From positions 1 through 64,000 of the forward strand of contig JAUHYZ010000008.1 in assembly GCA_030426245.1 (NCBI GenBank): a stretch of 64,000 nucleotides of DNA. The letters run 5' to 3'. The notes below the pieces were generated by a model. It saw only the letters and a list, made by a program, of their open reading frames with translations, did not search any database and was not told where the DNA came from. How positions within the stretch are numbered: the stretch's first letter is position 1; each line of letters starts with the position of its first letter. The position numbers and the translations under genes were made by a program. This DNA is from Alphaproteobacteria bacterium (GTDB taxonomy: Bacteria; Pseudomonadota; Alphaproteobacteria; Sphingomonadales; Sphingomonadaceae). Shown here in pieces: positions 2,956 to 57,053 of this stretch.

Positions 2956-4815
2956 TCAGTTCGTCCGCCCGGCAGCCTCAAGGGTTGCAGCCGGCATCGG
3001 GATCTCGCCGGGATCGGGCATCGCTGCCGTCGTTTCGAAGAACTGCGACGACGGCGTATTCGCGATGAATTCCGCGACCAGGGAATGGTCGCTGCGGACC
3101 GGCTGCGGCGTGTCGTCCGGCCGGTTCAGCGGGACGACCTGCCGCAGGGCCGCATGCGCCGCCGTGGGGCCGGGGCCGAAGCCACGCTCCGGATTTTGCG
3201 CCTTGCGCACGTCCATCCAGTAGGCCGCGGTGAGGATCGATCCGGCGAGCAGCTCGCGCTGAACCTCCAGCAGCCGATTGGCGCGTTCCAGCCGCAGCAG
3301 CGGGACGGCGCCGACATCGGCCGGGTCGGCGACCGTGCCGATTCCGGGCGGGGTCAGCGGCATGGCCAGAGAGAGGATTTCCGACCACAGCCAGTGATTG
3401 GACCGGCCGCCGCCGCTACCGAAGCGGGGGCCGTCTTCCAGCACCTCTTCGGGGCGCACCACGGTGAAGAAGGGATCTTCGAACCGGCTTATCGTTTCGA
3501 CTACGATCGAATCCACATTGATCAGGGCGATGCCCAGCTGCTCGATCGAAACCACCAGCGGGAAGGGATCCCAGTTGGAGTTCGAGAAGATGTAGCCGCC
3601 GACACCATCGGAAAAGCGGCCGCCCTTGATGTAGTATTGCATCATCTGGGGCGTGGAGAGTTCCCACGCATCTTCCGGGCTGACACCCGGCCGGGAGGTC
3701 GGATTGTGATCGCTGGAGTTTATCTGGATCAGCGTGTTGTTGCGCAGGTTGGCCCAGGCTTCCCACACTGCGCCCTGGCGCCAGGGTTGGGCGCGCAGGC
3801 CCTCGGGATCCTGAATGATACGGTCGGGATCGGCTTCGAACAGATAGCTGCCGCGCAGCATCTCCATCACCCGCGCGCCGTGATAGCCGACCCAGGGGAA
3901 GGGGCGCGTGCCCAGCGTGGGCATGGCAATCGGCGTCAGGCTGGAATTCATGCCGTTCAGCGTCATCGCATAGGCCATGTCGGCCCATTCCAGATATTCC
4001 CGCACATCGTGCACCAGCAGCGCGGCCTTGCCCCCCGTCAGCGAACTGACGGTGTTCATGGCGTCGTCATTGCCGGAAAGTTCGAAGGGCTTCAGCCCTG
4101 CCTGCCGCAGCGCATCGGCGGCGAGCATCCGCTCCCCCTTGTAATAGGCGAAACCGCGACCGCCCATAGTGGCGCCGGCCGGGATGAAATCGGCTTCACC
4201 GCGCGCGCCGCGGGCGGGCATGGCGGGATAGATGCGGTTGTTGAGCAGCGCCACCACGCCATTGATGAAGTTCTCGCTGGAGGCTTCCCAGGTCGCCGTA
4301 TTGGCGAGCACGGCCAGCATGGCGCGCAAGGACGCTTCGTCCAGAACCTCCGGCTCCAATCCGCGCGAGCCGTAAGACCCTTCGAAGCGTTTGGCGATGG
4401 TCGCCAGCGCTTCGGGCGAATCCGGCGATCCTTCCAGCGTCACGATCTCGCGGCCCGCCCCCGCGCCGCGGTTGAAGCGGTAGACGGAAACGCCTTCTTC
4501 CTGCGCCTGCAGCATCAGCCCATAGGAGGCCTTGGCCCGTTCCATGGCTTCCGGGGCAACTTCGATCTTCGCCCCGCCGCGCGCGACCTTGACCACTTGC
4601 TCGATCGTCAGGCTGTGACCGGTGAGCGTGACCGTCTCATCGGCCATCGTCGGCTCGATGGATTGGAACTGCGCCGCCGCGGGCGTCGCTGCCAAGGCAA
4701 GGATGGCCGCCGCCATTAGGCTGAAGACGCCAAGCGCCGCGGATGCAAGCTGTCGGTAGCTATCGCCAAAAAATGTGTCCGGTTTGCGAAGGTCGGCGCA
4801 GTGTTGGGGATGCAT
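2956..4815 (-). CDS. Secreted HAL/PAL-fold protein lacking the MIO motif
   Basis: The protein (619 aa) belongs to the aromatic amino-acid ammonia-lyase family by its N-terminal LTIEQVVKVARGGAKIEV stretch, the VYRFNRGAG loop (Tyr112), YYKGERMLAADALRQAGL, the QDPEGLRAQP segment (335-344) and INSSDHNP (365-372). It has a signal peptide: a hydrophobic run from about residue 22 to 44 and a likely cleavage after Ala48 (TPAAA/QF). Normal family members are cytoplasmic. The Ala-Ser-Gly triad that cyclises to the MIO electrophile is replaced by Glu-Ala-Asp (207-209). By hand alignment to HutH, active-site His83, Asn195 and Tyr280 also appear changed (to Tyr148, Thr260, Glu338), while the Tyr53 and Arg283 equivalents remain. 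It is therefore probably not a classical ammonia-lyase; the function is unknown. It is monocistronic, with a long repeat-rich region upstream. Confidence 0.85.
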   Translation of the reverse strand: MHPQHCADLRKPDTFFGDSYRQLASAALGVFSLMAAAILALAATPAAAQFQSIEPTMADETVTLTGHSLTIEQVVKVARGGAKIEVAPEAMERAKASYGLMLQAQEEGVSVYRFNRGAGAGREIVTLEGSPDSPEALATIAKRFEGSYGSRGLEPEVLDEASLRAMLAVLANTATWEASSENFINGVVALLNNRIYPAMPARGARGEADFIPAGATMGGRGFAYYKGERMLAADALRQAGLKPFELSGNDDAMNTVSSLTGGKAALLVHDVREYLEWADMAYAMTLNGMNSSLTPIAMPTLGTRPFPWVGYHGARVMEMLRGSYLFEADPDRIIQDPEGLRAQPWRQGAVWEAWANLRNNTLIQINSSDHNPTSRPGVSPEDAWELSTPQMMQYYIKGGRFSDGVGGYIFSNSNWDPFPLVVSIEQLGIALINVDSIVVETISRFEDPFFTVVRPEEVLEDGPRFGSGGGRSNHWLWSEILSLAMPLTPPGIGTVADPADVGAVPLLRLERANRLLEVQRELLAGSILTAAYWMDVRKAQNPERGFGPGPTAAHAALRQVVPLNRPDDTPQPVRSDHSLVAEFIANTPSSQFFETTAAMPDPGEIPMPAATLEAAGRTN

Positions 4816-4975
4816 TGCGAAAATTCCTTTCGGGAAAGTCGGCTCCCGTCAGGACTATTGCATCGGTGCCCGGCAGGACAAAGGCGAGCCGAACGAACGG
4901 GGCCATACCTTTTTCCGAAAGGGCGGCGTTGATGGCTGCAATGGGTGGGGAGCGGACGACCCAATACCACCACAT

Positions 4976-5037
4976 CCGTTCGTCCTGAGCCTGTCGAAGG
5001 ACGCGCGTTCATGCTTCGACAAGCTCAGCACGAACGG
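4976..5037. repeat. Sphingomonad-type palindromic repeat (TCGTCCTGAGC family)
   Basis: Arms 4976-4999 and 5014-5037 are 24-nt inverted copies with two mismatches around a 14-base spacer. The arm sequence, CCGTTCGTCCTGAGCCTG followed by TCGAAG, is a form I recognise as recurring between genes of many sphingomonads, probably a REP-like element. One full unit is seen here. Confidence 0.8.
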
Positions 5038-5091
5038 GTTCTGGATGATGGCTGTGGGTCCGCTCTGGCTCGTTAGCGGACATTGAAACGC

Positions 5092-5174
5092 GGTCACCCC
5101 GGGCCTGTCCCGGGGTCCAGCTTTTTACTTGTCGGCATAAGAGAGCGGGATCCCGGAACAAGTCCGGGATGACC
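5092..5174. repeat. Paired palindromic repeat (GGTCAYCCCGG family)
   Basis: Two 30-nt units, 5092-5121 and 5145-5174, are inverted copies of each other (24 of 30 positions match). Each unit is itself a small hairpin: CCCCGGG/CCCGGGG at 5097-5115 and ATCCCGG/CCGGGAT at 5150-5170. The sequence resembles another repeat common between genes of sphingomonads. Transcripts crossing it would fold strongly. Confidence 0.75.
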
Positions 5175-5519
5175 AAGGGGCACGGGAATGACGATAGGGG
5201 GCAGACACACCCGATCATCCGGCGGCGAACCCGGACGTTACGCCCTGAAGAAATAACGGATCGCGCGGCTGGCGCCGGGATGCGGGTGAGGCAACCCTGG
5301 GCGTCAGGTCAGGCGGGCGGATGGAAATGTGTTGCGATTGACCTATGCGTTCCAAATTCCGCTCCATCCGCGCACAGGTTCGGCCCTATTTCCCGCCACC
5401 GGCTCGGGATGAGAGGAGCGGGCTCGCATTGCTCCTTACATCCCTGCGGCTGAATTGCCGCACCACATCCGGTGTCTGCAGGCTTCTGCCGCTCTCTTTC
5501 CTTTCGGGCTGAGGTGACC

Positions 5520-5573
5520 CGTCAGGGGGAGAAGCAACAGGCGGAGCCGGCGAATGAAGCCGCCTCCCTGACG
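5520..5573. other. Nested inverted repeat, possible structured RNA
   Basis: An outer stem of CGTCAGGG (5520-5527) with CCCTGACG (5566-5573) encloses an inner stem of GGCGG (5540-5544) with CCGCC (5560-5564). Both are perfect. No known riboswitch core was recognised, and no gene starts directly downstream on either strand. Confidence 0.35.
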
Positions 5574-5593
5574 CAATATGCGCCAGCCGCGAA

Positions 5594-5610
5594 TGTCCCA
5601 TTTTGGGACA
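5594..5610. promoter_or_regulatory. Perfect TGTCCCA-TTT-TGGGACA palindrome
   Basis: A perfect 7-bp inverted repeat with a 3-base centre. Its symmetry and size fit a dimeric transcription-factor site. The nearest start codons are far away (lyase-fold gene at 4815, LysE at 6356), so the target is unclear. Confidence 0.35.
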
Positions 5611-5741
5611 GATGGAAGCGGGTTCAGCCGGCCATGCCGCCCCCGATCCGCATCCTGCTGAGGTTACAGGATGGGCGCATCGATAACCAAAACGGTTAGT
5701 TATGTCAAGAAGAATGTGCCGGGCGCGTGCAGCGGTGCCGA

Positions 5742-6356
5742 TCAGCCGGTGCCGAAAATCACGGGGTAGAGCGACGCCAGCAGAAGCAGCGCGGCCGCGA
5801 TATTGAAGGCGCGCAGCCAGTTCGGGCGGGAAAGCACGCGCCGTACCTGCACGCCCATCAGCGTCCAGACGCTGACCGACGGAATGTTGACGATGGCGAA
5901 TACCGCCACCAGCACCGCCAGGCTGGCGAAGGGCGCATTTTTCGACGTGTAGGTGGCAATTGCGGCCAGGCCCATGGTCCAGGCCTTGGGGTTCACCCCT
6001 TGGAACAGCGCGGCCTGAAAGAGGGAGAAGGGCCTGGGCCCCTCGGCCTGCAAATCGCCGCCGCGTATGGGGGAGGCGGCGGTCGCGATCTTCCAGGCGA
6101 GGAACAGCAGATAGGCCACGCTGATCCATTTCAGCGCCGTGTAGGCCATCGGGAATCTGCCGAACAGCTGATACAGCCCGGCGCCCATCACGCAAAGCAG
6201 CACGGCCATGCCCAGCACGACGCCCAGCATGTGCGGGATGGTCCGGCGAAAGCCGAAATTCGTGCCGGAGGCCATCAGCATGATGTTGTTCGGCCCCGGT
6301 GTGATGGACGCGACGAAGGCGAAAGCCGCCAGGGCAAAGAGCAACTCGGTTTGCAT
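5742..6356 (-). CDS. LysE/RhtB-family amino-acid exporter
   Basis: A 204-residue inner-membrane protein with about six hydrophobic segments and the family N-terminus: a hydrophobic helix followed by TPGPNNIMLMASG. Later hallmarks are FQGVNPKAWTMGL and the closing hydrophobic helix. LysE/RhtB proteins export amino acids or their derivatives. The open frame extends 24 residues upstream, but the ATG giving MQTELLFALAAF matches the family start and leaves room for a promoter. It is divergent from an Lrp-type regulator 75 bp away, the classic LysE/regulator pairing. The substrate cannot be read from the sequence. Confidence 0.9.
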   Translation of the reverse strand: MQTELLFALAAFAFVASITPGPNNIMLMASGTNFGFRRTIPHMLGVVLGMAVLLCVMGAGLYQLFGRFPMAYTALKWISVAYLLFLAWKIATAASPIRGGDLQAEGPRPFSLFQAALFQGVNPKAWTMGLAAIATYTSKNAPFASLAVLVAVFAIVNIPSVSVWTLMGVQVRRVLSRPNWLRAFNIAAALLLLASLYPVIFGTG

Positions 6357-6431
6357 GACCGTGCAATAATAGGCGAATATCCGCCGAAATATGTTGCAAA
6401 GATCGTGCAAAAATCGTCCAATGCACAATAT
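6357..6431. promoter_or_regulatory. Divergent LysE/Lrp control region
   Basis: A 75-bp AT-richer spacer between divergent genes. GTGCAA occurs at 6361-6366 and 6405-6410, with a related GTTGCAAA near 6393, and an inverted GGCG-N6-CGCC lies at 6372-6385. Regularly spaced, AT-rich half-sites suit an Lrp-type octamer that represses itself and controls the exporter. This is inference from layout. Confidence 0.45.
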
Positions 6432-6884
6432 ATGGCGGATATGGACGATTTCGACCGAAGGATATTGCGCGTTCTTCAGGAGGACGGGCGGATCAGCAAT
6501 GTCGATCTCGCTGCCAGAGTCGCTCTCTCGCCATCGGCATGCCTGCGCCGCGTTCAGGCGCTGGAGCGGTCCGGCGCGATTGCGGGCTACCGCGCCAGTG
6601 TCAGCCCGGAAGCGCGGGGCGTATCCTTCATCGCCTATGTCACGGTGGGCCTCTCACGCCATACGAAGGACGAACAGCTAAGTTTCGAGCGGGCGATCGG
6701 TCAGTCGCCCGAAGTGCGCGAATGCCACAATGTCACCGGCAGCGTCGAATATCTGCTGCGGATCGAAGCGGCCGATCTGGCGAGCTACAAGCATTTCCAT
6801 ACCGAAGTGCTGGGCGCCCTGCCGCAGGTTTCCACCATCACCTCCTACATCGTGATGGGCTCGCCCAAGGACGAACGGGCCTAG
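6432..6884 (+). CDS. Lrp/AsnC-family transcriptional regulator
   Basis: A 150-residue protein with an N-terminal winged helix-turn-helix (DDFDRRILRVLQEDGRISNVDLAARV, then LSPSACLRRVQALERSG) and a C-terminal RAM/effector domain (VRECHNVTGSVEYLLRIEAADLASY). This is the full Lrp layout and length. The ATG giving MADMDDFD was chosen because the family starts a few residues before LDxxDRxIL. It probably senses an amino acid and controls the divergent LysE-family exporter and itself. No amino-acid specificity can be assigned. Confidence 0.92.
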   Translation: MADMDDFDRRILRVLQEDGRISNVDLAARVALSPSACLRRVQALERSGAIAGYRASVSPEARGVSFIAYVTVGLSRHTKDEQLSFERAIGQSPEVRECHNVTGSVEYLLRIEAADLASYKHFHTEVLGALPQVSTITSYIVMGSPKDERA

Positions 6885-13301: not shown

Positions 13302-14636
13302 TCATACAGGTTCGTAGGTCTTGCCGCGCCGGCGAAGCGCGGCAGGTGCGGTTTCATGCAGCCCCATGGAGACGATCCCGCTGATCGCGGCCAGCACCAT
13401 CAGCGCATAGAGGAAGGATTCCATCCCGAACCGGTCGTTCAGCAGCCCGGCAATCGGCGGGCCCGCGACGCCGCCCAGCACTTCGCAGAAACCCATGGCC
13501 AGGCCCAGCACCGTGGCATGGTGGACCGGTTTGAACGTTTCGGAAGGGATCGTGGCCATGAAGATCGGGAACGTGCCGTTGACCATCCAGCCGAGGAAGA
13601 AGATCGGCACCAGCACAACGGCATAACCGCTCATGTTCCCGATGGCGAAGCTTTCGAAATTCGCCGGATCGAGCAGCAATACGCCAAGCGGGCCGATCAG
13701 CGAGAGGAATGGCAGGAAGACCATCACCGGTTTGCGCCCGATCCTGTCGGAAAGGCCGGAAACCGCCATCGAATATATTGCCGCCGCGATGCCGAGCGAG
13801 CCCATGAGGTAGCTCATCGAAGTGCCGTCCAGGCCTTTGCCCTGCACCAGGAAGATCGGCATGAAGGCCCAGGTAATGACGAAATGGGCCACCATCATGA
13901 TGCCCACCACCACGCTGATCCACATGTTGCGGACTTTCATGGCGCGGACGACTTCGGTGAAATAGCTGCTCGCCGCTTGCGAATCGCCGGCAGTGGGCCT
14001 CTCGTCGCGCGCGACGGGCCTTGGCTCTTCGAGCAGGAACCAGATCAGCGCGGCCGAAATGAGGCCGGGCAGCGCGGCAAGGTAGAAGGCCTCGCGCCAG
14101 CTGAACTGCATTTCGACAACAAACCATACCAATACCACGGGCGCGGCGAAGCTGCCGAGCAGGTTGGAGCCCAGATTTTGCGCAACGCCCTGCGCCAGGC
14201 CGCGGCGTTCCGGGTTGACCTCGCTTGCCACCATCGCATGGCTGATCGGCATTACGCCGCCCTCGGCAGCACCCATCAGCAAGCGCGCGCCGAACAGGAA
14301 CAGGAAGCTGGGCGCAAGCCCGGAAAGAAAGGAGCACAGCGAAAAGGCGATCGTGGCGATGATCAGCAGCAATTTGCGCTTGCCCAGCGTGTCGGACAGG
14401 CGCCCGACGAAGAAGGCGGCGATGGCCCAGCTGAAGGAAAGGCCAGCCGCCAGCAGGCCGATCTGCGCTCCGGAAAGGGCAAGCTCCGGCTGCACGAAAG
14501 GCATCAGCACATTCAGCGCCTGCCGGTCGAAGAACACGATCCCGAAATTCAGGCTCAGCAGGAAAACCAGCAGGAACTGGTACTTTCCGGAATTCTTCGT
14601 CCAATTCCCTTGGGGCAACATGCCGGCTGGCTGCAT
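13302..14636 (-). CDS. MFS transporter (second of a tandem pair)
   Basis: A 444-residue, 12-helix MFS carrier paralogous to the gene just downstream: SGKYQFLLVFLLSLNFGIVF matches SGRYQFWLVLLLSLNFGILF, and both share FFDRQA, ARLLMG.AEGGVMPISHAM and SEVNP/AEVNP. The start has a good ribosome site (GGGAGA). It lies between the glyoxalase-fold gene and its paralogue, and probably imports the substrate of the cluster or a related compound. Confidence 0.92.
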   Translation of the reverse strand: MQPAGMLPQGNWTKNSGKYQFLLVFLLSLNFGIVFFDRQALNVLMPFVQPELALSGAQIGLLAAGLSFSWAIAAFFVGRLSDTLGKRKLLLIIATIAFSLCSFLSGLAPSFLFLFGARLLMGAAEGGVMPISHAMVASEVNPERRGLAQGVAQNLGSNLLGSFAAPVVLVWFVVEMQFSWREAFYLAALPGLISAALIWFLLEEPRPVARDERPTAGDSQAASSYFTEVVRAMKVRNMWISVVVGIMMVAHFVITWAFMPIFLVQGKGLDGTSMSYLMGSLGIAAAIYSMAVSGLSDRIGRKPVMVFLPFLSLIGPLGVLLLDPANFESFAIGNMSGYAVVLVPIFFLGWMVNGTFPIFMATIPSETFKPVHHATVLGLAMGFCEVLGGVAGPPIAGLLNDRFGMESFLYALMVLAAISGIVSMGLHETAPAALRRRGKTYEPV

Positions 14637-14691
14637 TGTGTTCTCTCCCTGCCGCGCCTTTGCGGTGCGTCCTACGTTGTCCGTTCGATTG

Positions 14692-15237
14692 TCAGATGAA
14701 GGAACGGACGGGATCGCTGCCGTCCCATCCCTGCGAAGCTTTCCAGAAACGGGTGAAGGTTTCGTCCATGCCCGGCGTCACGGGCAGCAGTTCCACAAAA
14801 CCCCACTGGGCGCCTGTGCCGTTGTCCAGATAGATCACTTCGCCGCCGGTCCGCACCGCAGCGCGAAACGCCTCTGCGTAGCCGCGGGCCTGATAGTCGC
14901 GCGATGCCGCGTCCACATCTGCACAGGCTATGCCCAAATGGTGGAAGCCGTATCCGCGCTGCTCGATGGTTTCGCGGTAGACGGAAGGATTTGTGTCCAG
15001 CGGCTGGATCAGCTCGATCAGCATGTGCCCGGCAAACCCCATTGCCAGCGTGATATCGGCGCGCGATTCCTCGCCGCGATAAGTCTGCCCGGGCGCCAGA
15101 AAGTGATCGAGAACGAAGAACGGGCCGGTACCGGTATCCGCCACGAAGCGGGCGATCGACGCTTGCAGGTCTTCGACCACAAAGGCGGTCTGCGCGATCC
15201 CGCCCAGTGGTTGGCCGTAGCCCAGGGTTTGCGTCAT
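14692..15237 (-). CDS. VOC (glyoxalase/bleomycin-resistance fold) protein
   Basis: A 181-residue protein of vicinal-oxygen-chelate type. A beta-alpha-beta module starts at QTAFVVEDLQASIARF, and a second half includes GFHHLGIACADVDAASRDYQARG and WGFVELLP. His and Glu at the expected places of metal ligands (HHLG, HMLIELIQ, FVELLP) suggest an active metalloenzyme. VOC enzymes include dioxygenases, isomerases and lyases. It is the first gene of the leftward operon, with an AGGAGA site, and diverges from the aldolase-family gene. Confidence 0.88.
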   Translation of the reverse strand: MTQTLGYGQPLGGIAQTAFVVEDLQASIARFVADTGTGPFFVLDHFLAPGQTYRGEESRADITLAMGFAGHMLIELIQPLDTNPSVYRETIEQRGYGFHHLGIACADVDAASRDYQARGYAEAFRAAVRTGGEVIYLDNGTGAQWGFVELLPVTPGMDETFTRFWKASQGWDGSDPVRSFI

Positions 15238-15419
15238 GGCATTGCTCTCCTGCCGTCAAACGGGCCGCCGGCTTCACTGCCGGCATGATTCCCCGAACGC
15301 GGTGGAACATGGCTTGCTAATTACCGGGGCATTGTCAATCTGCGAGCGCAGCCGTGCACGCTCTTGTGACCCTGCATGACGCCGTGCGATAGGCTGCAGG
15401 CAAGTTTTGGAGGCAGGCA

Positions 15420-16181
15420 ATGGCAACCCGGATCGAGCGCAAAACGGAATGCAGCGAAGCGGAATGGCAGGCGCGGCTGGATCTGGCTGCCTGTTACCGG
15501 ATATTCGACATGCTCGGCTGGTCAGAATCGATCTACAACCACATCACCTTGCGCGTGCCGGATGACGATAAAGCCTTTCTGATCAATCCCTATGGGTTGC
15601 TTTGGTCGGAAGTAACGGCATCCAACCTGGTGAAGATCGATGGGGAGGGCAACAAGCTGGACGGCAGCCCCTACCCGGTCAACAAGGCGGGCTTCACGCA
15701 GCATGGCTGCTTCCACAACAATCTGCCCTGGGCCCATGCCATCGTGCATACGCATACGCCCGAAACGATGGCGGTGTGCTGCACGGAAGAAGGGCTGACG
15801 CCGACCAATTTCTATTCCTGCTTCTTCCAGGGGATGATCGGCTATCACGATTTCGAAGGCATCACGGTGCGCCCGGATGAGGGCGAGCGGCTGCTGAGGA
15901 ATCTGGGCAATGGGCGCCAGATCCTGATGCTGCGCAATCACGGCCCGGTGGTGCTGGGCAAGACGCTGCCGGAAATGTTCTTCATGTATTACATGCTGCA
16001 GCGCGCCTGTGAGGTGCAGATCATGGCCAATGGCGCGGGCACCCCGATCGTGGTGCCGGAAGAAGTGATCGCGGTGCATCAGCGCGACCGGGACGAAGTG
16101 GCGATCGCCGGTTTCGGCGAGGCCGATTTCGCGGCCTGGGTGCGCAAGCTGGACACAATCGATACAGGCTGGCGCGCGTGA
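15420..16181 (+). CDS. Class II aldolase/adducin family protein
   Basis: A 253-residue protein with the zinc ligands of the family: HTHTPET and RNHG. The N-terminus SIYNHITLRVPD matches the usual S.GNIS.R phosphate-loop region, but in the variant seen in decarboxylases and adducin-like members. Enzymes of this family cleave or decarboxylate hydroxy-carbonyl compounds. An excellent GGAGGCAG ribosome site precedes the ATG. It is divergent from the seven-gene catabolic operon and is followed by the 2Fe-2S gene. Confidence 0.9.
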   Translation: MATRIERKTECSEAEWQARLDLAACYRIFDMLGWSESIYNHITLRVPDDDKAFLINPYGLLWSEVTASNLVKIDGEGNKLDGSPYPVNKAGFTQHGCFHNNLPWAHAIVHTHTPETMAVCCTEEGLTPTNFYSCFFQGMIGYHDFEGITVRPDEGERLLRNLGNGRQILMLRNHGPVVLGKTLPEMFFMYYMLQRACEVQIMANGAGTPIVVPEEVIAVHQRDRDEVAIAGFGEADFAAWVRKLDTIDTGWRA

Positions 16182-16232
16182 TATTGCAGGCAGCCCGCAT
16201 GGCCTCGAGCATGGAGAATTGCCCTGTCTAGG

Positions 16233-16769
16233 ATGACTGTGAATGGCCGGCCGGTCGAATTCGAAATGGATCCGCAGACGCCGCTGCTCTGGGCGCTGCG
16301 CGACGCCGCCAATCTCACCGGCACGAAATATGGCTGCGGCGTGGGCGATTGCGGCGCCTGCATGGTGATGGTGGATGGCGAGGCGCTGAGGAGCTGCCTG
16401 ATCACCATTGCCGAGGCGGAAGGGCGCTATGTCACCACGATCGAGGGGCTTTCGCGCGACCGCTCCAACCCGGTGCAGCAGGCGCTGGTGGCCGAACAGG
16501 CGATCCAGTGCGGTTTCTGCACGCCTGGCATTGCGATTGCCGCGGCTGCGCTGATCGCCCGGAACCCTTCACCTTCTCAGGAGGAAATAGAGGAGGCGAT
16601 CCCCAATCTGTGCCGCTGCGGCGTCTATCCGCGGCTGGTGCGCGCGGTGCAGCGCGCCGGGCGCGTCACGCTGCGGCAGGAAACGATCAGCGCCATGCCC
16701 GCGCCGGGGATCAGCGCGGAGGATGCCGCGCAGGCCGTCCCTGCGATCGGCACCGGCGACAGCGATTAG
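16233..16769 (+). CDS. 2Fe-2S subunit of a xanthine-dehydrogenase-family enzyme (IorA-like)
   Basis: A 178-residue small subunit with all eight Cys of the two [2Fe-2S] clusters: Cys35, 40, 43, 55 (plant-type) and Cys93, 96, 127, 129 (alpha-helical). Such proteins pass electrons from a molybdenum hydroxylase large subunit (isoquinoline 1-oxidoreductase, aldehyde oxidase). No large subunit or CoxL-type gene is present on either side; the next gene is a convergent TonB receptor whose stop overlaps this one by 4 bases. The C-terminal tail beyond the fold (residues 152-178) is unusual. It needs a partner from elsewhere. Confidence 0.9.
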   Translation: MTVNGRPVEFEMDPQTPLLWALRDAANLTGTKYGCGVGDCGACMVMVDGEALRSCLITIAEAEGRYVTTIEGLSRDRSNPVQQALVAEQAIQCGFCTPGIAIAAAALIARNPSPSQEEIEEAIPNLCRCGVYPRLVRAVQRAGRVTLRQETISAMPAPGISAEDAAQAVPAIGTGDSD

Positions 16770-18844
16770 AAGCGCAGCTTGGCGCCGAGAGTGGCGCTGA
16801 TCGGTTCGCCGGGCTGGATGTTGTTGTCGCCATGGGCGCTGGCATAATAGGCCGTGTCGAACAGGTTCTCGACATTGAGCTGCAGCGCGAGCTGCTCCGT
16901 CACGTCGAAGAACACTGCCGCATCCACCCGCGTATAGGCAGGCAGCACCACCTGGTTGCTGAGCGATGCGAATTGCTCCGACTGGTGAACGATGCCCGCA
17001 CCCACGCCGAGGCGGCGCGAGATGTCATAGCGGGCCCATGCGCCGATCTGGTGTTCGGGCAGCTGTTCCAGCCGTGTACCGGCCACAGCGGAGCTCGTGT
17101 CGGACGTCACTTCGCCGTCGAGATAGGTATATCCCAGATTGACGTGGAGGTTGGAGAGGACATCCCCCGCCAGGCTCAGCTCGAAGCCTTCCACCCGCGT
17201 CTCGCCCGTCTGGATCACGAAGCCCGGATTGTCCGGATCGGGTGCAGTGCTGTTCGAGCGTTCGAGCCGGAAGAGCGCGGCCGTCAGGAGGAGTTCGGGC
17301 TGGATCGCCCATTTCGCGCCGATCTCGAAATTCTCGAACTCCTCGGGCTCCAGGGTGACGCTGGTTGCATTGAGGACGGAGAATTGATCGCCCGATTGCG
17401 GCAGGAAGCTTTGCGAATAGCTGCCATAGATGGAAACCGCTTCAACGGGCTTCAGGACCACGCCAAAGCGCGGGCTCCATTTCGTGTCCTTGCGCTGGGC
17501 ATTGAATGCGGCAACGAAGTCCGAGGTTTCGAGGTCGAAGCTTTCGTAGCGGATCCCGGCGATGAGCTGGAGGAATTCGCCGATCTCGACCTGATCCTGG
17601 ATGTAGACGGAGGTGGTCGTCAGATCGGATTCGCTGGCCCGCTGCGGCTCCAGCGTGAAGGCGGGAACGGTGATGGTTTCGGCCAGCAATACCGAAACGC
17701 TCGTTTGGCCGCCGAACACTGCGCGGTCCCGTGACGAATCCGATTTTTGGCTGATCGCCTCGACACCGGCGAGCAGCGTGTGGCCGATGCTGCCCGTGTC
17801 GAACTGCGCAACGAAATTCGCCTGGCCGATGAAATTCTGCCGGTTATTCGCATTCTGATAGCCGACGAGCGTGGCCTCGGTTCCGTCCGTGCCCGACGGT
17901 ACGATATTGGCGTAGAACTTGTCGTAATCGGCGAATTGCGCCGTCGCATTGAAACTGACGCCGTCCGACAGCCGGTGATCGATGCGTCCGCGCAGAATAT
18001 GCGCCTGAACTTGCGAGCGGTTATAGTCCGGATCGCCGAACAGCGTTTCGTCATAGCCTTCGATCGGCATCCCGCCGAAGGAGGGGATGCCGCGATCGGC
18101 CAGGCGATCGTCGTCGTCATAGGTGTAATGCACTGCCAGGCTGGTATCCGGCCCCAGCTCGGCATTCAGCGTGGGACTGATGCCGATGAAGCGCCCGTCA
18201 TAGAACTGGCGATGGCTGTCGAAGGTCTCATAAGTTGCATTGAGCCGCCCGGCGATATTGGCGGTCAGCGGCTGGTTGATGTCCGCGGAGGCATTCCATG
18301 CGCCTTCGGTATCGATGCCTGCAGCCAGTGCCGTGAAGCCGCCCATGAGGTCCGCGCGCTTGGCGATGCGGTTGACTGCGCCGCCGCCGCCACCGCGCCC
18401 GAAGATCAGCGCATTGGCGCCCTTGAGCACCTCGACCCGTTCGACATTGTAGAGCGAGCGATAATATTGCGCGTCGTCGCGCAGCCCGTCGATGTAGAAA
18501 TCGGCGGTCGATTCCTGGCCGCGAATAAACACCGCGTCACGGTTGCCTTCGCCGCTTTCCATGCTGACGCCAGGAACGAAGCGCAGCGCATCGTTGAGCC
18601 TGGTCTGCCCCTGATCGTCCAGCTGGTCGCGCGTGATCACGGATATGGCCTGCGGCACGTCGACCAGCGGTGTCGGCGTCTTTGTGCCGCTGGAACCGTC
18701 TTCGAGGACATAGCCGGGCGTTTCCCCGGTCACGACGATGTCGCCCGGCAAATAGGTGCGGCCATCCTGGGCGTGAGCAACAGTGGCGGGAACCAACGCG
18801 CCTGCGCAGAGCAGAAGCGCCTGCAAACTATTCGACCTCAACAA
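16766..18844 (-). CDS. TonB-dependent siderophore receptor
   Basis: A 692-residue outer-membrane receptor. It has a signal peptide (cleavage near VAHAQ), a plug domain (PTPLVDVPQAISVITRDQL, VFIRGQESTADFYIDGLRDD, NVERVEVLKGANALIFGRGG) and a barrel ending in the C-terminal LGAKLRF, with terminal Phe for Bam insertion. The plug signature is that of Fiu/FhuE-like ferric siderophore receptors. The only start consistent with the signal peptide is TTG. A GATAGTGATAAT-like Fur site lies upstream. The gene ends inside the last codons of the convergent 2Fe-2S gene. Confidence 0.92.
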   Translation of the reverse strand: MLRSNSLQALLLCAGALVPATVAHAQDGRTYLPGDIVVTGETPGYVLEDGSSGTKTPTPLVDVPQAISVITRDQLDDQGQTRLNDALRFVPGVSMESGEGNRDAVFIRGQESTADFYIDGLRDDAQYYRSLYNVERVEVLKGANALIFGRGGGGGAVNRIAKRADLMGGFTALAAGIDTEGAWNASADINQPLTANIAGRLNATYETFDSHRQFYDGRFIGISPTLNAELGPDTSLAVHYTYDDDDRLADRGIPSFGGMPIEGYDETLFGDPDYNRSQVQAHILRGRIDHRLSDGVSFNATAQFADYDKFYANIVPSGTDGTEATLVGYQNANNRQNFIGQANFVAQFDTGSIGHTLLAGVEAISQKSDSSRDRAVFGGQTSVSVLLAETITVPAFTLEPQRASESDLTTTSVYIQDQVEIGEFLQLIAGIRYESFDLETSDFVAAFNAQRKDTKWSPRFGVVLKPVEAVSIYGSYSQSFLPQSGDQFSVLNATSVTLEPEEFENFEIGAKWAIQPELLLTAALFRLERSNSTAPDPDNPGFVIQTGETRVEGFELSLAGDVLSNLHVNLGYTYLDGEVTSDTSSAVAGTRLEQLPEHQIGAWARYDISRRLGVGAGIVHQSEQFASLSNQVVLPAYTRVDAAVFFDVTEQLALQLNVENLFDTAYYASAHGDNNIQPGEPISATLGAKLRF

Positions 18845-53003: not shown

Positions 53004-54545
53004 ATGACTGATCCGGTCCAGGACCACACACAGCCAGGCGACGGGAATGGGGGGCTGGCAATGCTTTCGGTCCGGCGGATCCCGATCGATATGCATCCGG
53101 ACAACACGGCCTATCTGCTGCGGCACGGCAATGGCTATTCGGCCGAGCAGTTTCAGGCGCTCCGCAAGATCAGGATTTCGGCGGATGGCTGCGAGATTCT
53201 CGCTTCTTTGGGCCTGGTCGACGATGAGCGGATTGTCGGCCCAGGCGAAATCGGGCTGGGCGAACAGGCGTTTCGCAGGCTCGGGCTGGCAGAGGGCAGC
53301 CAGGTCCATATCGAGCAGGCACGGCCGCCGGCCAGCCTCGAATATGTGCGTCGCAAGATCGACGGCGAGGTTCTCAGCGATAGCGAGGTCTCCGCCATCA
53401 TCCACGACATCTCCCGCCATCTTTATTCTCCGATGGAGATCGGTGCGTTCCTTGTCGCTTGTGCCGGTTTCATGAGCACGCAGGAAACGCTCTCCCTGAC
53501 CCAGGCGATGATCGATGTCGGCAACCGGCTCCATTGGAATTCGCCGCTGGTGGTGGACAAGCACTGCATCGGCGGCATTCCGGGCAACCGGACTTCGATG
53601 ATCGTGGTCCCGATTGTCGCCGCACATGGCCTGATCTGCCCGAAGACATCCTCGCGGGCGATCACCTCCCCGTCGGGCACGGCGGATACGATGGAACTGC
53701 TGGCCAATGTCGACCTTTCCGAAGAGCAGATGTCGAATATCGTCGGGAAGGAAAAGGCAGTGCTCGCCTGGGGAGGAAGGGTGAACCTGTCGCCGGCGGA
53801 CGATATCCTGATTTCGGTCGAAAGGCCGCTGCGGCTCGACAGGTTCGAGCAGATGGTTGCATCGATCATGTCCAAGAAGGCATCTGCGGGCTCCACGCAT
53901 CTGGTCATCGACATCCCGGTCGGGCCGACCGCGAAGGTCCGCTCGCAAAGCGATGCTGTGCGCCTGCGAAAGCTCTTCGAATATGTTGCGCGGCATCTGG
54001 GGATCGAAATCGATGTGGTCCTGACAGATGGCTCCCAGCCGATCGGGCGAGGAATCGGTCCGGTGCTGGAAGTGCGCGATGTGATGGCCGTGCTGCGCAA
54101 TGAAGCAGACGCGCCCGACGATCTGCGCGACCGTGCCTTGCTGCTGGCGGGGCATGTGCTCGACTTCGATCCGGCGATCGAAGGCGGCAGAGGCTATGCG
54201 CGGGCGTTCGAACTGCTGGCATCCGGCGCGGCTCTGGCAGCGATGGAGCGATTGATCGAAGCTCAGGGGCGCAAGACCGGAAAGCTCGAGCCGGGCACCC
54301 TTCGCAAGGAAGTGACAGCGGGCCAGAATGGACGGGTTGTGAGCATCGATTGTGAACGAATGGCCCGGATCGCACGGCTTGCGGGCGCGCCCATGGATAA
54401 GGGCGCCGGCATCGATTTGTTGCACAAGGTCGGCGCGGAAGTCCGTACCGGTGAGGCGCTCTACCGGATTCACGCGAATACGAAGGCCGGGCTGGGCTTC
54501 GCGGCGGATCTGGCCGGCGAGCGTTCGGGATATGTAATCGGCTGA
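53004..54545 (+). CDS. AMP/thymidine phosphorylase family enzyme (archaeal AMPpase type)
   Basis: A 513-residue protein. The first 100 residues form the extra N-terminal domain of archaeal AMP phosphorylase, followed by the nucleoside-phosphorylase core: EYVRRKIDGEVLSDSEVSAIIHDI, VDKHCIGGIPGNRTSMIVVPIVAAHG, KTSSRAITSPSGTADTMELLA and TDGSQPIGRGIGP. Archaeal enzymes split AMP with phosphate into adenine and ribose 1,5-bisphosphate; ordinary thymidine phosphorylase (about 440 aa) lacks this N-terminus. Its stop overlaps the start of the PRPP-synthetase gene by one base, strong evidence of joint function. Confidence 0.88.
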   Translation: MTDPVQDHTQPGDGNGGLAMLSVRRIPIDMHPDNTAYLLRHGNGYSAEQFQALRKIRISADGCEILASLGLVDDERIVGPGEIGLGEQAFRRLGLAEGSQVHIEQARPPASLEYVRRKIDGEVLSDSEVSAIIHDISRHLYSPMEIGAFLVACAGFMSTQETLSLTQAMIDVGNRLHWNSPLVVDKHCIGGIPGNRTSMIVVPIVAAHGLICPKTSSRAITSPSGTADTMELLANVDLSEEQMSNIVGKEKAVLAWGGRVNLSPADDILISVERPLRLDRFEQMVASIMSKKASAGSTHLVIDIPVGPTAKVRSQSDAVRLRKLFEYVARHLGIEIDVVLTDGSQPIGRGIGPVLEVRDVMAVLRNEADAPDDLRDRALLLAGHVLDFDPAIEGGRGYARAFELLASGAALAAMERLIEAQGRKTGKLEPGTLRKEVTAGQNGRVVSIDCERMARIARLAGAPMDKGAGIDLLHKVGAEVRTGEALYRIHANTKAGLGFAADLAGERSGYVIG

Positions 54546-55444
54546 TGGGCATCGCAGTTTTCGGATTTGCCGAATGTACGGATGAGGCCGGGCGGCTGGC
54601 CGATGCGCTGGGCATTGCGTGCCACGAAATCAGTGTGCATCGCTTTCCCGATGGGGAGAGCCTGGTGCAGGTCGCGCCCGTACCTGCTCCGGAAACCGCG
54701 ATCCTCTATCGTTCGCTCGACAATCCCAATGCCAAGCTGGTCGAAATCCTGCTGTCTGCTTCGGCACTTCGCGAAAACGGCGCGCGCCGCATCATCTTGG
54801 TCGCGCCCTATCTGGCCTATATGCGGCAGGACATAGCATTCGAGCCCGGGCAGGCGGTCAGCCAGCGGGTTATCGGAAAGATGCTCGCCGCACATTTCGA
54901 CGGTTTGTTGACGGTCGATCCGCATCTCCACCGGATTCACTCCCTGGCCGAAATCATGCCGGACATCGAAGCAATCAGCATCACTGCGGCGCCAGCTCTG
55001 GCGCGTGCGATCGCCAAGGGTGAGAGCCCGGTGCTGATCGGACCGGACAGCGAATCCCGCCAGTGGGTGGAAGCGATTGCCGATCCATTGGGGCTCGACG
55101 TTTTGGTCGGCGCCAAGCGCCGCAAGGGAGATCGGGCCGTCGAAATCGTCATCGAAAGTATAGAGAAGGTCTCCGCCCGCCCGGCCGTGCTGGTCGACGA
55201 TGTCATCGCCAGCGGCGAGACGCTGGCGACCGCAGCGGGCCTGCTGCGCGAAGCCGGGGCCTCCAGGATCGAGGCGCTGGCCACGCATTGCCTGGCGAGC
55301 GACGCTGACCTTGCAAGGCTGCGCGAAGCCGGCATCGAACGAATCCGTTCCAGCGACAGCGTGCCTGGCGCGACTGCTTCGATTTCTCTGGCTTCCTTGC
55401 TGGCCGGTGAAATCGTGGAGCGGGGATGGATCGGTAAAGACTGA
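54545..55444 (+). CDS. Ribose-phosphate pyrophosphokinase, archaeal-like
   Basis: A 299-residue PRPP synthetase. It has the N-terminal RFPDGESLVQV loop, PYLAYMRQDIAFEPGQAVSQRVIGKML and the PRPP-binding VLVDDVIASGETLA. These resemble archaeal Prs (PYLAYARQDK.F.PGEA) more than the housekeeping bacterial form (PYFGYARQDR), so it is probably not the main prs gene. It starts one base into the previous stop. The substrate might be ribose 5-phosphate or a product of the neighbouring phosphorylase; this is inference. Confidence 0.85.
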   Translation: MGIAVFGFAECTDEAGRLADALGIACHEISVHRFPDGESLVQVAPVPAPETAILYRSLDNPNAKLVEILLSASALRENGARRIILVAPYLAYMRQDIAFEPGQAVSQRVIGKMLAAHFDGLLTVDPHLHRIHSLAEIMPDIEAISITAAPALARAIAKGESPVLIGPDSESRQWVEAIADPLGLDVLVGAKRRKGDRAVEIVIESIEKVSARPAVLVDDVIASGETLATAAGLLREAGASRIEALATHCLASDADLARLREAGIERIRSSDSVPGATASISLASLLAGEIVERGWIGKD

Positions 55445-55451
55445 GGAAATT

Positions 55452-57053
55452 ATGGCAAAAGACAGACTCTCGCTCACGTTCCACGGTGCCGCCCACACGG
55501 TGACGGGATCGTGCATGCAGTTCACGCATGAGGGGAAATCGATCTTGGTCGATTGCGGGATGTTCCAGGGCTCGCGCACGCTCGAACAGCTCAATGTCGA
55601 GCCTTTCGCGTTTCGGCCGGCGGATATCGATGCCGTCCTTCTTACGCATGCCCATATCGATCACAGCGGCATGTTGCCCAAACTGGTCAAGCACGGTTTC
55701 AGAGGCGATATCTGGTGTACCCGGCAGACTGCCGATCTGCTGCAGTTCATGCTGGCGGATTCTGGCCGGATCCAGGAATACGATGTCGAGCGGCGAAACC
55801 GCCGGCGAGACCGGGCCGGCGAGGAGCCTTTGGAGGCGGTCTACACAGAAAAGGACGCGATGGCTGCTTGGCGGCGCTGCCGGCCGGTGGAAAGGGGGAC
55901 TAGTTTCGAACCTGCCCCGGGATTTTCCGCATGCCTGTGGAATGCCGGCCATATCCTCGGCTCCGCTTCTGTCGAACTTCAGGCGGACGGGGTGCGCGTG
56001 ATGTGCTCTGGGGACCTGGGCCCCGAATATCACGCATTCCTGCGAGATCCCTCGGGCCCTTCGGGTTTCGACTATGTGGTCTGCGAAACGACCTATGGCG
56101 GCCGCGTGCGCGAAAAGGTGACGCTGGAGGAGCGGCGCAAGCTGCTGGAGGCGGAAGTGAAGGCTGCGATCACGCGCGGGGGCAACCTGATCATCCCCAC
56201 TTTCGCATTGGAGCGAACTCAGGAGCTGCTGCTCGATCTCGCGCATATGCTGCGCGACGGGAGCATTCCCAAGGTTCCGGTCTTCGTCGATTCACCGCTT
56301 GCGAATGAAGTTACCAGCGTGTTCGCGCGCTATTCCGCAGAGCTTGAAGATACGGGCGGGATCGACGTTTTTGCGCATCCATCGTTCCATTTTGTTGACG
56401 ATGTGAAGGAATCGATCCGGCTCAATTCGATGTCCGGCGCGATCATCCTTGCCGCTTCCGGGATGTGCGAAGGGGGCCGGATACGGCATCACCTGATCCA
56501 CAACCTTCACCGGCGCGATTCGACGGTGCTGTTTGTCGGCTTCCAGGCGCAAGGATCGCTTGGCCGCGTAATTATGGAGGGTGCGAAGACCGTCAGAATT
56601 TCCGGCAAGGACGTCAATGTGCGTGCGCAAATCCGCCGCATCGACAATTACTCTGCGCATGCCGATCAGGAGGAACTGCTGGAATGGATCGACGATCGCG
56701 GCCCGATCTCGGGCAGCCTGTTTCTATCGCATGGTGAACCCGTCGGCATGGAAGCGATGCGGCGGGAAATGCAGCGGCGATTGCCGGAGCTATCGGTTCG
56801 CCTGCCGGAAATTGGGGAAACCTACGAACTGGCTGCCGGTGAGCCTGCAAAGAGAAGCAAGACCGGCCGGACCGATCTGGCACTGGCCAAGGGGCGCGAC
56901 TGGCAGAATGCCTATGCCGACTTTGCAACTTCGCTGAAGGCCAAGCTCAAGCGGATCCATGACGACCGCAAGCGGGAAGAAGCTCTCGAGGCGATGCGCC
57001 AGGTGCTCGATTCATACGAGGAACACAGGGAGAAGAAGGCGGACCGCGTTTGA
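55452..57053 (+). CDS. Metallo-beta-lactamase/beta-CASP family ribonuclease
   Basis: A 533-residue protein with all core motifs: THAHIDHSG (motif 2), NAGHILGSASV, CSGDLG, then beta-CASP motifs around the VDSPLANEVTSVF region, AASGMCEGGRIRHHL and NYSAHADQEELL. It belongs with CPSF73-like/YsbH RNases acting on RNA, usually as exo- or endonucleases. The C-terminal Lys/Arg/Glu-rich tail (from about 470) may bind RNA. It starts 7 bp after the PRPP-synthetase gene with GAGGA upstream, so it belongs to the same operon. Confidence 0.92.
   Translation: MAKDRLSLTFHGAAHTVTGSCMQFTHEGKSILVDCGMFQGSRTLEQLNVEPFAFRPADIDAVLLTHAHIDHSGMLPKLVKHGFRGDIWCTRQTADLLQFMLADSGRIQEYDVERRNRRRDRAGEEPLEAVYTEKDAMAAWRRCRPVERGTSFEPAPGFSACLWNAGHILGSASVELQADGVRVMCSGDLGPEYHAFLRDPSGPSGFDYVVCETTYGGRVREKVTLEERRKLLEAEVKAAITRGGNLIIPTFALERTQELLLDLAHMLRDGSIPKVPVFVDSPLANEVTSVFARYSAELEDTGGIDVFAHPSFHFVDDVKESIRLNSMSGAIILAASGMCEGGRIRHHLIHNLHRRDSTVLFVGFQAQGSLGRVIMEGAKTVRISGKDVNVRAQIRRIDNYSAHADQEELLEWIDDRGPISGSLFLSHGEPVGMEAMRREMQRRLPELSVRLPEIGETYELAAGEPAKRSKTGRTDLALAKGRDWQNAYADFATSLKAKLKRIHDDRKREEALEAMRQVLDSYEEHREKKADRV

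Follow-up and report, generated by a model that had tools for sequence, protein, structure and literature searches.

The 64,000-nucleotide stretch of DNA analysed here (the window; Sphingomonadaceae, contig JAUHYZ010000008.1) carries three consecutive genes for a phosphorylase, a kinase of the phosphoribosyl pyrophosphate (PRPP) synthetase fold and a beta-CASP nuclease. We establish the anatomy, fold, tree position, linkage and fusion partners of this trio, and tentatively put forward, as quite possible if somewhat short of probable, that it is a nucleotide-salvage line in which nucleoside monophosphates (NMPs) are split into base and ribose 1,5-bisphosphate (R15P) and the kinase turns R15P into PRPP.

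Three genes and their predicted products

53004-54545, + strand: phosphorylase open reading frame, NMP-phosphorylase-like (PRK04350/TIGR02645), probable start ATG 53061, 494 amino acids from there
54545-55444, + strand: kinase open reading frame, PRK07199 PRPP-synthetase fold, 299 amino acids
55452-57053, + strand: nuclease open reading frame, beta-CASP metallo-beta-lactamase with RMMBL domain, 533 amino acids

The three genes are co-directional; the last base of the phosphorylase stop codon TGA (54543-54545) is the first base of the kinase ATG, and 7 bases separate kinase and nuclease, so that the reading-frame coordinates confirm the 1-bp overlap and 7-bp gap of a preliminary description of this DNA. 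Judged by sequence, the true phosphorylase start is probably ATG 53061, because several homologues begin at the equivalent position. The nuclease frame as listed opens at 55200, and ATG 55452 agrees with homologues.

The phosphorylase scores over the curated cut-offs of NF003338 (PRK04350; 676.7 bits, cut-off 434) and TIGR02645 (583.9 bits, cut-off 434.6) and far under that of the thymidine phosphorylase DeoA model TIGR02643 (135.7 bits, cut-off 570.7); at 477 bits it also stays below the equivalog score of the AMP phosphorylase model TIGR03327 (AMP_phos, curated cut-off 535). Its AlphaFold model (39 sequences, mean pLDDT 91.9) aligns over residues 1-494 with the AMP phosphorylase 4ga5 (487 residues, Z 48.2, 38% identity), and thymidine and pyrimidine phosphorylases align to it only from about residue 88. 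The full-length 4ga5 alignment bears out the extra N-terminal domain of archaeal AMP phosphorylase that had been noted for the first gene. In a 63-row tree, drawn with a midpoint root, a fully supported branch (100/100) splits the bacterial family together with three archaeal AMP phosphorylases from six DeoA rows, and the phylogeny, proposed earlier as a check, thus groups the enzyme with the archaeal AMP phosphorylases and apart from DeoA. Residues K214, S217, T221, S222, A227, W256, G258, D267, P305 and K311 are common to the window protein and the three archaeal rows and occur in none of the six DeoA rows; such residues concentrate at the KTSSRAITS loop and at positions 256-267. Some positions, for example 188, 196, 197 and 274, differ from the archaeal rows too. 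By comparison with residues of E. coli thymidine phosphorylase, positions 256-283 probably line the base pocket. Sequence and model together suggest that the first gene product works like an NMP phosphorylase while standing outside TIGR03327.

Among the relatives, a phosphorylase clade of small alphaproteobacterial metagenome-assembled genomes (MAGs; loci L107, L109, L110, L112 and L115-L118) often lacks the active-site residues at 186, 256 and 291 and is accompanied by no PRK07199 kinase over the cut-off; this clade may have decayed or taken on another role. On haloarchaeal plasmids, AMP phosphorylase genes lie near universal stress protein genes (L124:4045-7437, L125:5251-7904), as does a phosphorylase copy of Bradyrhizobium septentrionale (L004).

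The kinase scores over the cut-offs of NF005537, the PRK07199 ribose-phosphate diphosphokinase subfamily (347.7 bits, cut-off 322), and of TIGR01251 (178.8 bits, cut-off 113), and under that of archaeal PRK00934 (182.9 bits, cut-off 296). Its best solved relative is the PRPP synthetase of M. jannaschii, a type that we take to be class III (128 bits; E. coli enzyme 93). The top four folds matching its model (46 sequences, mean pLDDT 95.8) are all archaeal, at Z 34.3 to 32.0, led by the PRPP synthetases of T. volcanium (3mbi, Z 34.3) and M. jannaschii (1u9y, Z 33.6), and the first class I enzyme comes next at 31.8. Both results uphold the archaeal-like character noted earlier for the second gene. 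The kinase keeps F34, D36, R94, H127, D168, D218, D219, G224 and T226, all invariant or above 90% in the family, as equivalents of the ATP and ribose 5-phosphate (R5P) contacts F35, D37, R99, H131, D170, D220, D221 and the T225-T228 loop given for the E. coli enzyme in the part of PMC9232217 available to us. Four further residues, H129, R130, E170 and W174, are invariant in the 46 family sequences (W174 in 76 of 79 of a wider alignment) and occur in none of the five solved PRPP synthetase sequences aligned, which come from four organisms. H129 and R130 come after the histidine that binds magnesium (E. coli H131), and E170 stands two residues past the aspartate equivalent to E. coli D170, which keeps magnesium at the C1-C3 hydroxyls of R5P (same part of PMC9232217). 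These family-specific residues would fit an altered acceptor, a compatibility that is less than proof of one. Elsewhere in the window's own genome (G000) are two more prs copies of housekeeping type, each on its own contig (G000:C66 and G000:C5; L008, L009), perhaps a strain mixture, and a second R5P enzyme therefore looks redundant.

The nuclease has the metallo-beta-lactamase, beta-CASP and RMMBL domains (PF00753, PF10996 and PF07521) and intact metal and beta-CASP residues (HAHIDH 66-71, H167, D188, E212, H346/H347, H403 and H427), of which H, D and E are invariant in six homologues. Its nearest solved relative is the RNase TTHA0252, and in such enzymes a histidine at motif C indicates that the substrate is RNA. 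Domains and motifs thus back the beta-CASP assignment of what had been called a CPSF-type RNase, so far as sequence can predict it.

Linkage and oxygen regulation in relatives

To see how constant the trio is, we searched 240 alphaproteobacterial and 398 Pseudomonadota genomes with family models. In the alphaproteobacterial sample the phosphorylase exceeds its cut-off in 34/240 genomes and the kinase in 17/240, all 17 falling within the 34 (Fisher p 5e-17, relatedness uncorrected), and in 14 of the 17 the kinase adjoins the phosphorylase on one contig. Among the Pseudomonadota 45/398 genomes have a phosphorylase match, of which 41 were tested for the kinase (G458, 70% complete, was left out, and G000, G145 and G183 were already kinase-bearing). 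The kinase is present in 36/36 genomes with a non-fusion phosphorylase (35 over the curated cut-off) and in 1/31 genomes without phosphorylase (p 3e-18), the latter being a non-random choice from PhnN- or DeoA-matching genomes that left out G417, G420, G439 and G448. In the best 80 named loci of at least 574 confirmed phosphorylase relatives, some of which end at contig ends, the kinase directly follows the phosphorylase in 71; these 80 are no random sample, because the search started from eight aligned phosphorylases, of which seven came from plasmids or the window and mostly had the kinase too. Loci L028 and L043 were counted as kinase-bearing through a kinase elsewhere in the genome (G615: 321.3 bits, slightly below the cut-off). 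The nuclease follows the kinase in 16/80 loci, precedes the phosphorylase in 3/80, follows a kinase-less phosphorylase in 5/80 and lies elsewhere in 6/80. The conserved unit is phosphorylase plus kinase, with the nuclease a less constant third member: of the co-occurring cassette proposed earlier, the phosphorylase-kinase linkage stands far beyond chance, but the trio as a unit does not, with an adjacent nuclease in 24/80 loci only.

Neighbouring genes are more scattered. Clustering of neighbours returned recurrent P-type ATPase, DUF1614, universal stress protein and N-ATPase genes, none of which explains R15P and all of which were set aside; at L085:11662-12324 the gene after the kinase encodes a DUF1614 membrane protein, and the family occurs in 10 loci. 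In seven stretches where the kinase lies away from the phosphorylase (L157-L163) no telling neighbour was seen, as judged by reading-frame starts and without a family scan. On Novosphingobium (L001:16228-22758) and Legionella anisa (L006:2548-9280) plasmids the genes are followed by alternative F-ATPase operons, and copper-resistance genes lie near them on a conjugative Sphingobium plasmid (L007). Comparison of the window's reading frames at 44-63 kb with ten sphingomonad loci (9-12 kb at most, kinase outside the query list) matched only phosphorylase and nuclease, and synteny beyond the trio is therefore uninformative.

Expression data exist for a trio of like products in Bradyrhizobium diazoefficiens. 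According to the available part of PMC6515984, the proteins of bll3117, bll3116 and bll3115 rise by log2 2.1, 4.4 and 2.9, and the transcripts 5.1-, 7.7- and 15.4-fold, at 0.5% O2. The available part of PMC9104804 reports that without FixK2 bll3115 falls 30.6-fold and bll3117 6.6-fold, places a FixK2 box at -74 and predicts a bll3117-bll3116-bll3115 operon; the table in PMC6515984 marks the three genes neither as FixK2 targets nor as bacteroid-induced. We searched upstream of the relatives' loci for the FNR/FixK box consensus TTGATnnnnATCAA, with dinucleotide shuffles (200 rounds) and distant windows as controls. Boxes with at most one mismatch lie upstream of 14/86 loci, where 0.8 are expected (maximum 5 in the 200 rounds; distant windows 1/78), and boxes with at most two upstream of 32/86, where 10.0 are expected (maximum 17; distant windows 13/78); these loci are not independent because they are related to one another. 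An earlier count against simple shuffles had given 15/93 loci with at most one mismatch. In many relatives the operon is thus probably switched on at low oxygen by FNR/FixK-type regulators, although not visibly so in the window.

PhnN and the fate of ribose 1,5-bisphosphate

To our knowledge, accounts of R15P metabolism come mainly from archaea, where it leads to RuBisCO or to ribulose 1,5-bisphosphate (RuBP) phosphatase, and from E. coli for PhnN. NMP phosphorylase, R15P isomerase, RuBP phosphatase and E. coli PhnN are described in the available part of Sato 2022 (PMC9700705). In the literature covered, with subscription journals and preprints outside its scope and sources seen in part, no function was found for the proteobacterial trio or for the PhnN fusion. 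R15P isomerase is over the cut-off in 0/70 alphaproteobacterial genomes, 0/35 with the phosphorylase (G038 and the 34 whose phosphorylase passes its cut-off) and 0/35 others. The window's own genome, which is 79% complete, gave no match to R15P isomerase and, as the only genome searched for it, none to the RuBisCO large subunit, as far as that incomplete sequence reaches; both had earlier been noted as missing from this DNA. PhnN is likewise not found over the cut-off there.

In relatives PhnN (profile built from L105 and L108) is physically tied to the phosphorylase, being fused to it in eight loci (L108, L121, L122, L123, L146, L147, L148 and L149) and adjoining it in one. The fusion of G065 is a single reading frame of 678 amino acids (PhnN 192.2 bits, cut-off 156; PRK04350 586.7), and further fusions occur in Variovorax SRS16, on Pacificitalea and Paraburkholderia 22B1P plasmids and in G606, G528, G596 and G471. 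The six fusion rows included in the tree group as a single clade (100/100). The kinase is present in 0/5 fusion genomes checked (G065 and, from the Pseudomonadota sample, G606, G528, G596 and G471) and in 0/1 genome of that sample with a partial phosphorylase (G477); G477 had been tried as a fusion genome and was dropped, with its partial phosphorylase match and no PhnN match. A phage search with the fusion protein matched 23/50,697 records, none at 80% coverage; one, MT836048.1 ('Bacteriophage sp.', 13.5 kb, faeces), holds a phosphorylase relative at 41% and may be bacterial DNA.

Directly upstream of the fusion and on the same strand lies a nadC-like gene in 8/8 fusion loci, 6/8 of these matches being independent of the profile, which was built from L121 and L122 and has no match at any non-fusion locus among those searched. 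The fusion clade also has its own residues at 257, 262, 270, 273 and 283. The nadC-like neighbour and the changed residues at 257-283 suggest that the fusion loci run from quinolinate through nicotinate mononucleotide (NaMN) to nicotinate with PRPP recycled. In Variovorax, nadC and phnN have been noted beside a quinolinate-binding protein gene in the available part of PMC11452294, whose main text makes no mention of 'phosphorylase'.

Within about 2.5 kb of 5/8 fusion loci (L146 and L148 being outside that scan) lie SIR2_2-like or FRG-domain genes, possibly NAD-linked or defence genes, with SIR2_2-like scores of 26.8 and 26.3 bits (cut-off 24.5) and, at L108, no single stretch over the cut-off:
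L108:5322-6524, SIR2_2-like or FRG-domain gene
L147:7479-8684, SIR2_2-like or FRG-domain gene
L123:7861-8703, SIR2_2-like or FRG-domain gene
L149:11528-12304, SIR2_2-like or FRG-domain gene
L121:5478-6287, SIR2_2-like or FRG-domain gene
Fusion locus L147 also has genes of molybdenum-hydroxylase type and one for an FAD monooxygenase beside it (4239-6515, 13414-18467), as in pyridine or purine breakdown.

PhnN tends to occur where the kinase is missing. Among 16 named phosphorylase genomes PhnN is found in 6/6 without and 1/10 with the kinase (p 9e-4), eight of the kinase-bearing ones being hand-picked from 71, and with the numbered sample genomes (G) added the counts are 10/13 and 2/27 (p 2e-5), the small-MAG clade having been excluded post hoc with the data already seen. 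The cleanest swap between kinase and PhnN is a sister pair (100/99) in which Thiomicrorhabdus (G619) has PhnN and neither the kinase nor the carbon-phosphorus (C-P) lyase PhnJ, and Cocleimonas has the kinase and no PhnN. Of the ten kinase-less PhnN genomes phnJ was not found in G065 and G619, and PhnN and phnJ lie on different contigs in G613, G614 and G616. In G165 a second PhnN (185.4 bits) is the divergent neighbour of the phosphorylase, and the first lies near the C-P lyase gene phnJ.

Weighing the proposed pathway

In the proposed line, the nuclease would break RNA into 5'-mononucleotides, the phosphorylase would convert NMPs (AMP, CMP, UMP type) to free base and R15P, as family, fold and residues suggest, and the kinase, to judge from genomic context, would phosphorylate R15P with ATP to PRPP, the job of PhnN in relatives; PRPP and the freed bases would re-enter nucleotide synthesis via ordinary phosphoribosyltransferases. 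If the kinase makes PRPP from R15P, the route can do without R15P isomerase and without RuBisCO. We infer the substrates, the direction of the reactions, the feeding by RNase and any low-oxygen role of the window copy. The wider proposal that PRK07199 is a new PRPP-forming R15P kinase replacing PhnN in a direct NMP-to-PRPP route, and that its fusion cousins with the nadC-like gene run a catalytic PRPP cycle from quinolinate to nicotinate, seems to us rather doubtful.

Several observations weigh against the salvage line. PhnN is over the cut-off in 17/70 genomes, 5/35 with the phosphorylase and 12/35 others, and is therefore not enriched with the phosphorylase as such; once the 11 low-scoring small-MAG genomes are included, its association with the missing kinase weakens to 10/24 against 2/27 (p 0.007). 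phnJ accompanies PhnN in 8/10 kinase-less genomes, and PhnN sits inside the C-P lyase cluster in G135, G236, G617 and G618. Neither kinase nor PhnN is present in G231, G059, G093 and the 11 genomes of the small-MAG clade, and both are in G041 and the genome of L084. The distinctive kinase residues are placed near the acceptor and the ATP phosphates by alignment with the E. coli enzyme only, and since the expected PRPP-synthetase residues are retained, R5P is a fully possible substrate. The nuclease was not found in the examined DNA of 50/80 loci, and no FNR/FixK box lies within 300 bp in the window, where the best match has 3 mismatches.

The main alternative, possible if somewhat doubtful, casts the kinase as an ordinary PRPP synthetase of class-III-like type that works on R5P and whose PRPP recharges the freed bases, another enzyme removing R15P. 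The TIGR01251 score, the fold and the kept catalytic residues all agree with it, and C-P lyase would alone account for PhnN in most kinase-less PhnN genomes; yet the genome already has a housekeeping-type prs, the family-invariant substitutions fall on the acceptor side, and the PhnN fusions and neighbour and the Thiomicrorhabdus swap without C-P lyase would be left unexplained. The suggestion that the second gene answers the question of R15P's fate has thus gained independent genomic support from PhnN fusion, adjacency and partial replacement, but is confounded by C-P lyase. Of the closed salvage loop first envisaged, an NMP-phosphorylase-like enzyme, an archaeal-type kinase and a beta-CASP gene are in place, whereas its step from pentose phosphate to PRPP belongs to the R5P alternative.

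An NAD-linked module for base exchange, with the phosphorylase acting on nicotinamide mononucleotide, NaMN or other non-standard mononucleotides and the kinase regenerating PRPP, is improbable for the window: the nadC-like gene beside all eight fusions raises the possibility that some family members act on a nicotinate nucleotide, but the window phosphorylase has the archaeal residue at all but the last of the five fusion-clade positions, and the nadC profile matches at fusion loci alone among those searched. We consider it very improbable that the annotation holds and the first gene encodes a thymidine or pyrimidine-nucleoside phosphorylase within a nucleoside catabolic set; databases do label its kin 'thymidine phosphorylase family protein' and the core fold is shared, but the TIGR02643 score, the separate DeoA branch and the AMP-phosphorylase N-terminal domain all speak against it. 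Microoxic induction of the Bradyrhizobium trio would suit a kinase run in reverse (PRPP + AMP to R5P + ATP) for emergency ATP at low oxygen, an idea that is scarcely credible, as an independent PRPP source would be required and no context for one was found.

If the salvage line is real, R15P would have a further fate, in a set that is widespread in Proteobacteria under the labels thymidine phosphorylase and ribose-phosphate diphosphokinase. At least several hundred genes (those of the 574 or more relatives) would then need new annotation, and an oxygen-regulated rhizobial operon would gain a function. The kinase's choice between R15P and R5P is the decisive question, and a simple one in vitro.

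Several known systems come close to the trio or to its parts. The window phosphorylase resembles archaeal AMP phosphorylase (Thermococcus 4ga5) in its full-length fold, many active-site residues and tree position, and differs in scoring under the TIGR03327 cut-off. PRK07199 has the fold and the ATP and ribose-phosphate residues in common with M. jannaschii 1u9y, a class III PRPP synthetase, and with T. volcanium 3mbi, and is set apart by its own invariant H129, R130, E170 and W174 and by its score under the PRK00934 cut-off. E. coli PhnN, a ribose 1,5-bisphosphate phosphokinase, carries out the same reaction as is proposed for the window kinase, R15P + ATP to PRPP, and has a different fold, with a guanylate-kinase-like match. 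The bll3117-bll3116-bll3115 genes of B. diazoefficiens encode the same three products in the same order, a likeness judged by products and order, and are known as expression data with no function proposed in the available parts of PMC6515984 and PMC9104804. Where the archaeal NMP pathway has R15P isomerase and RuBisCO, the window trio has instead a kinase of the PRPP-synthetase fold and a beta-CASP nuclease.

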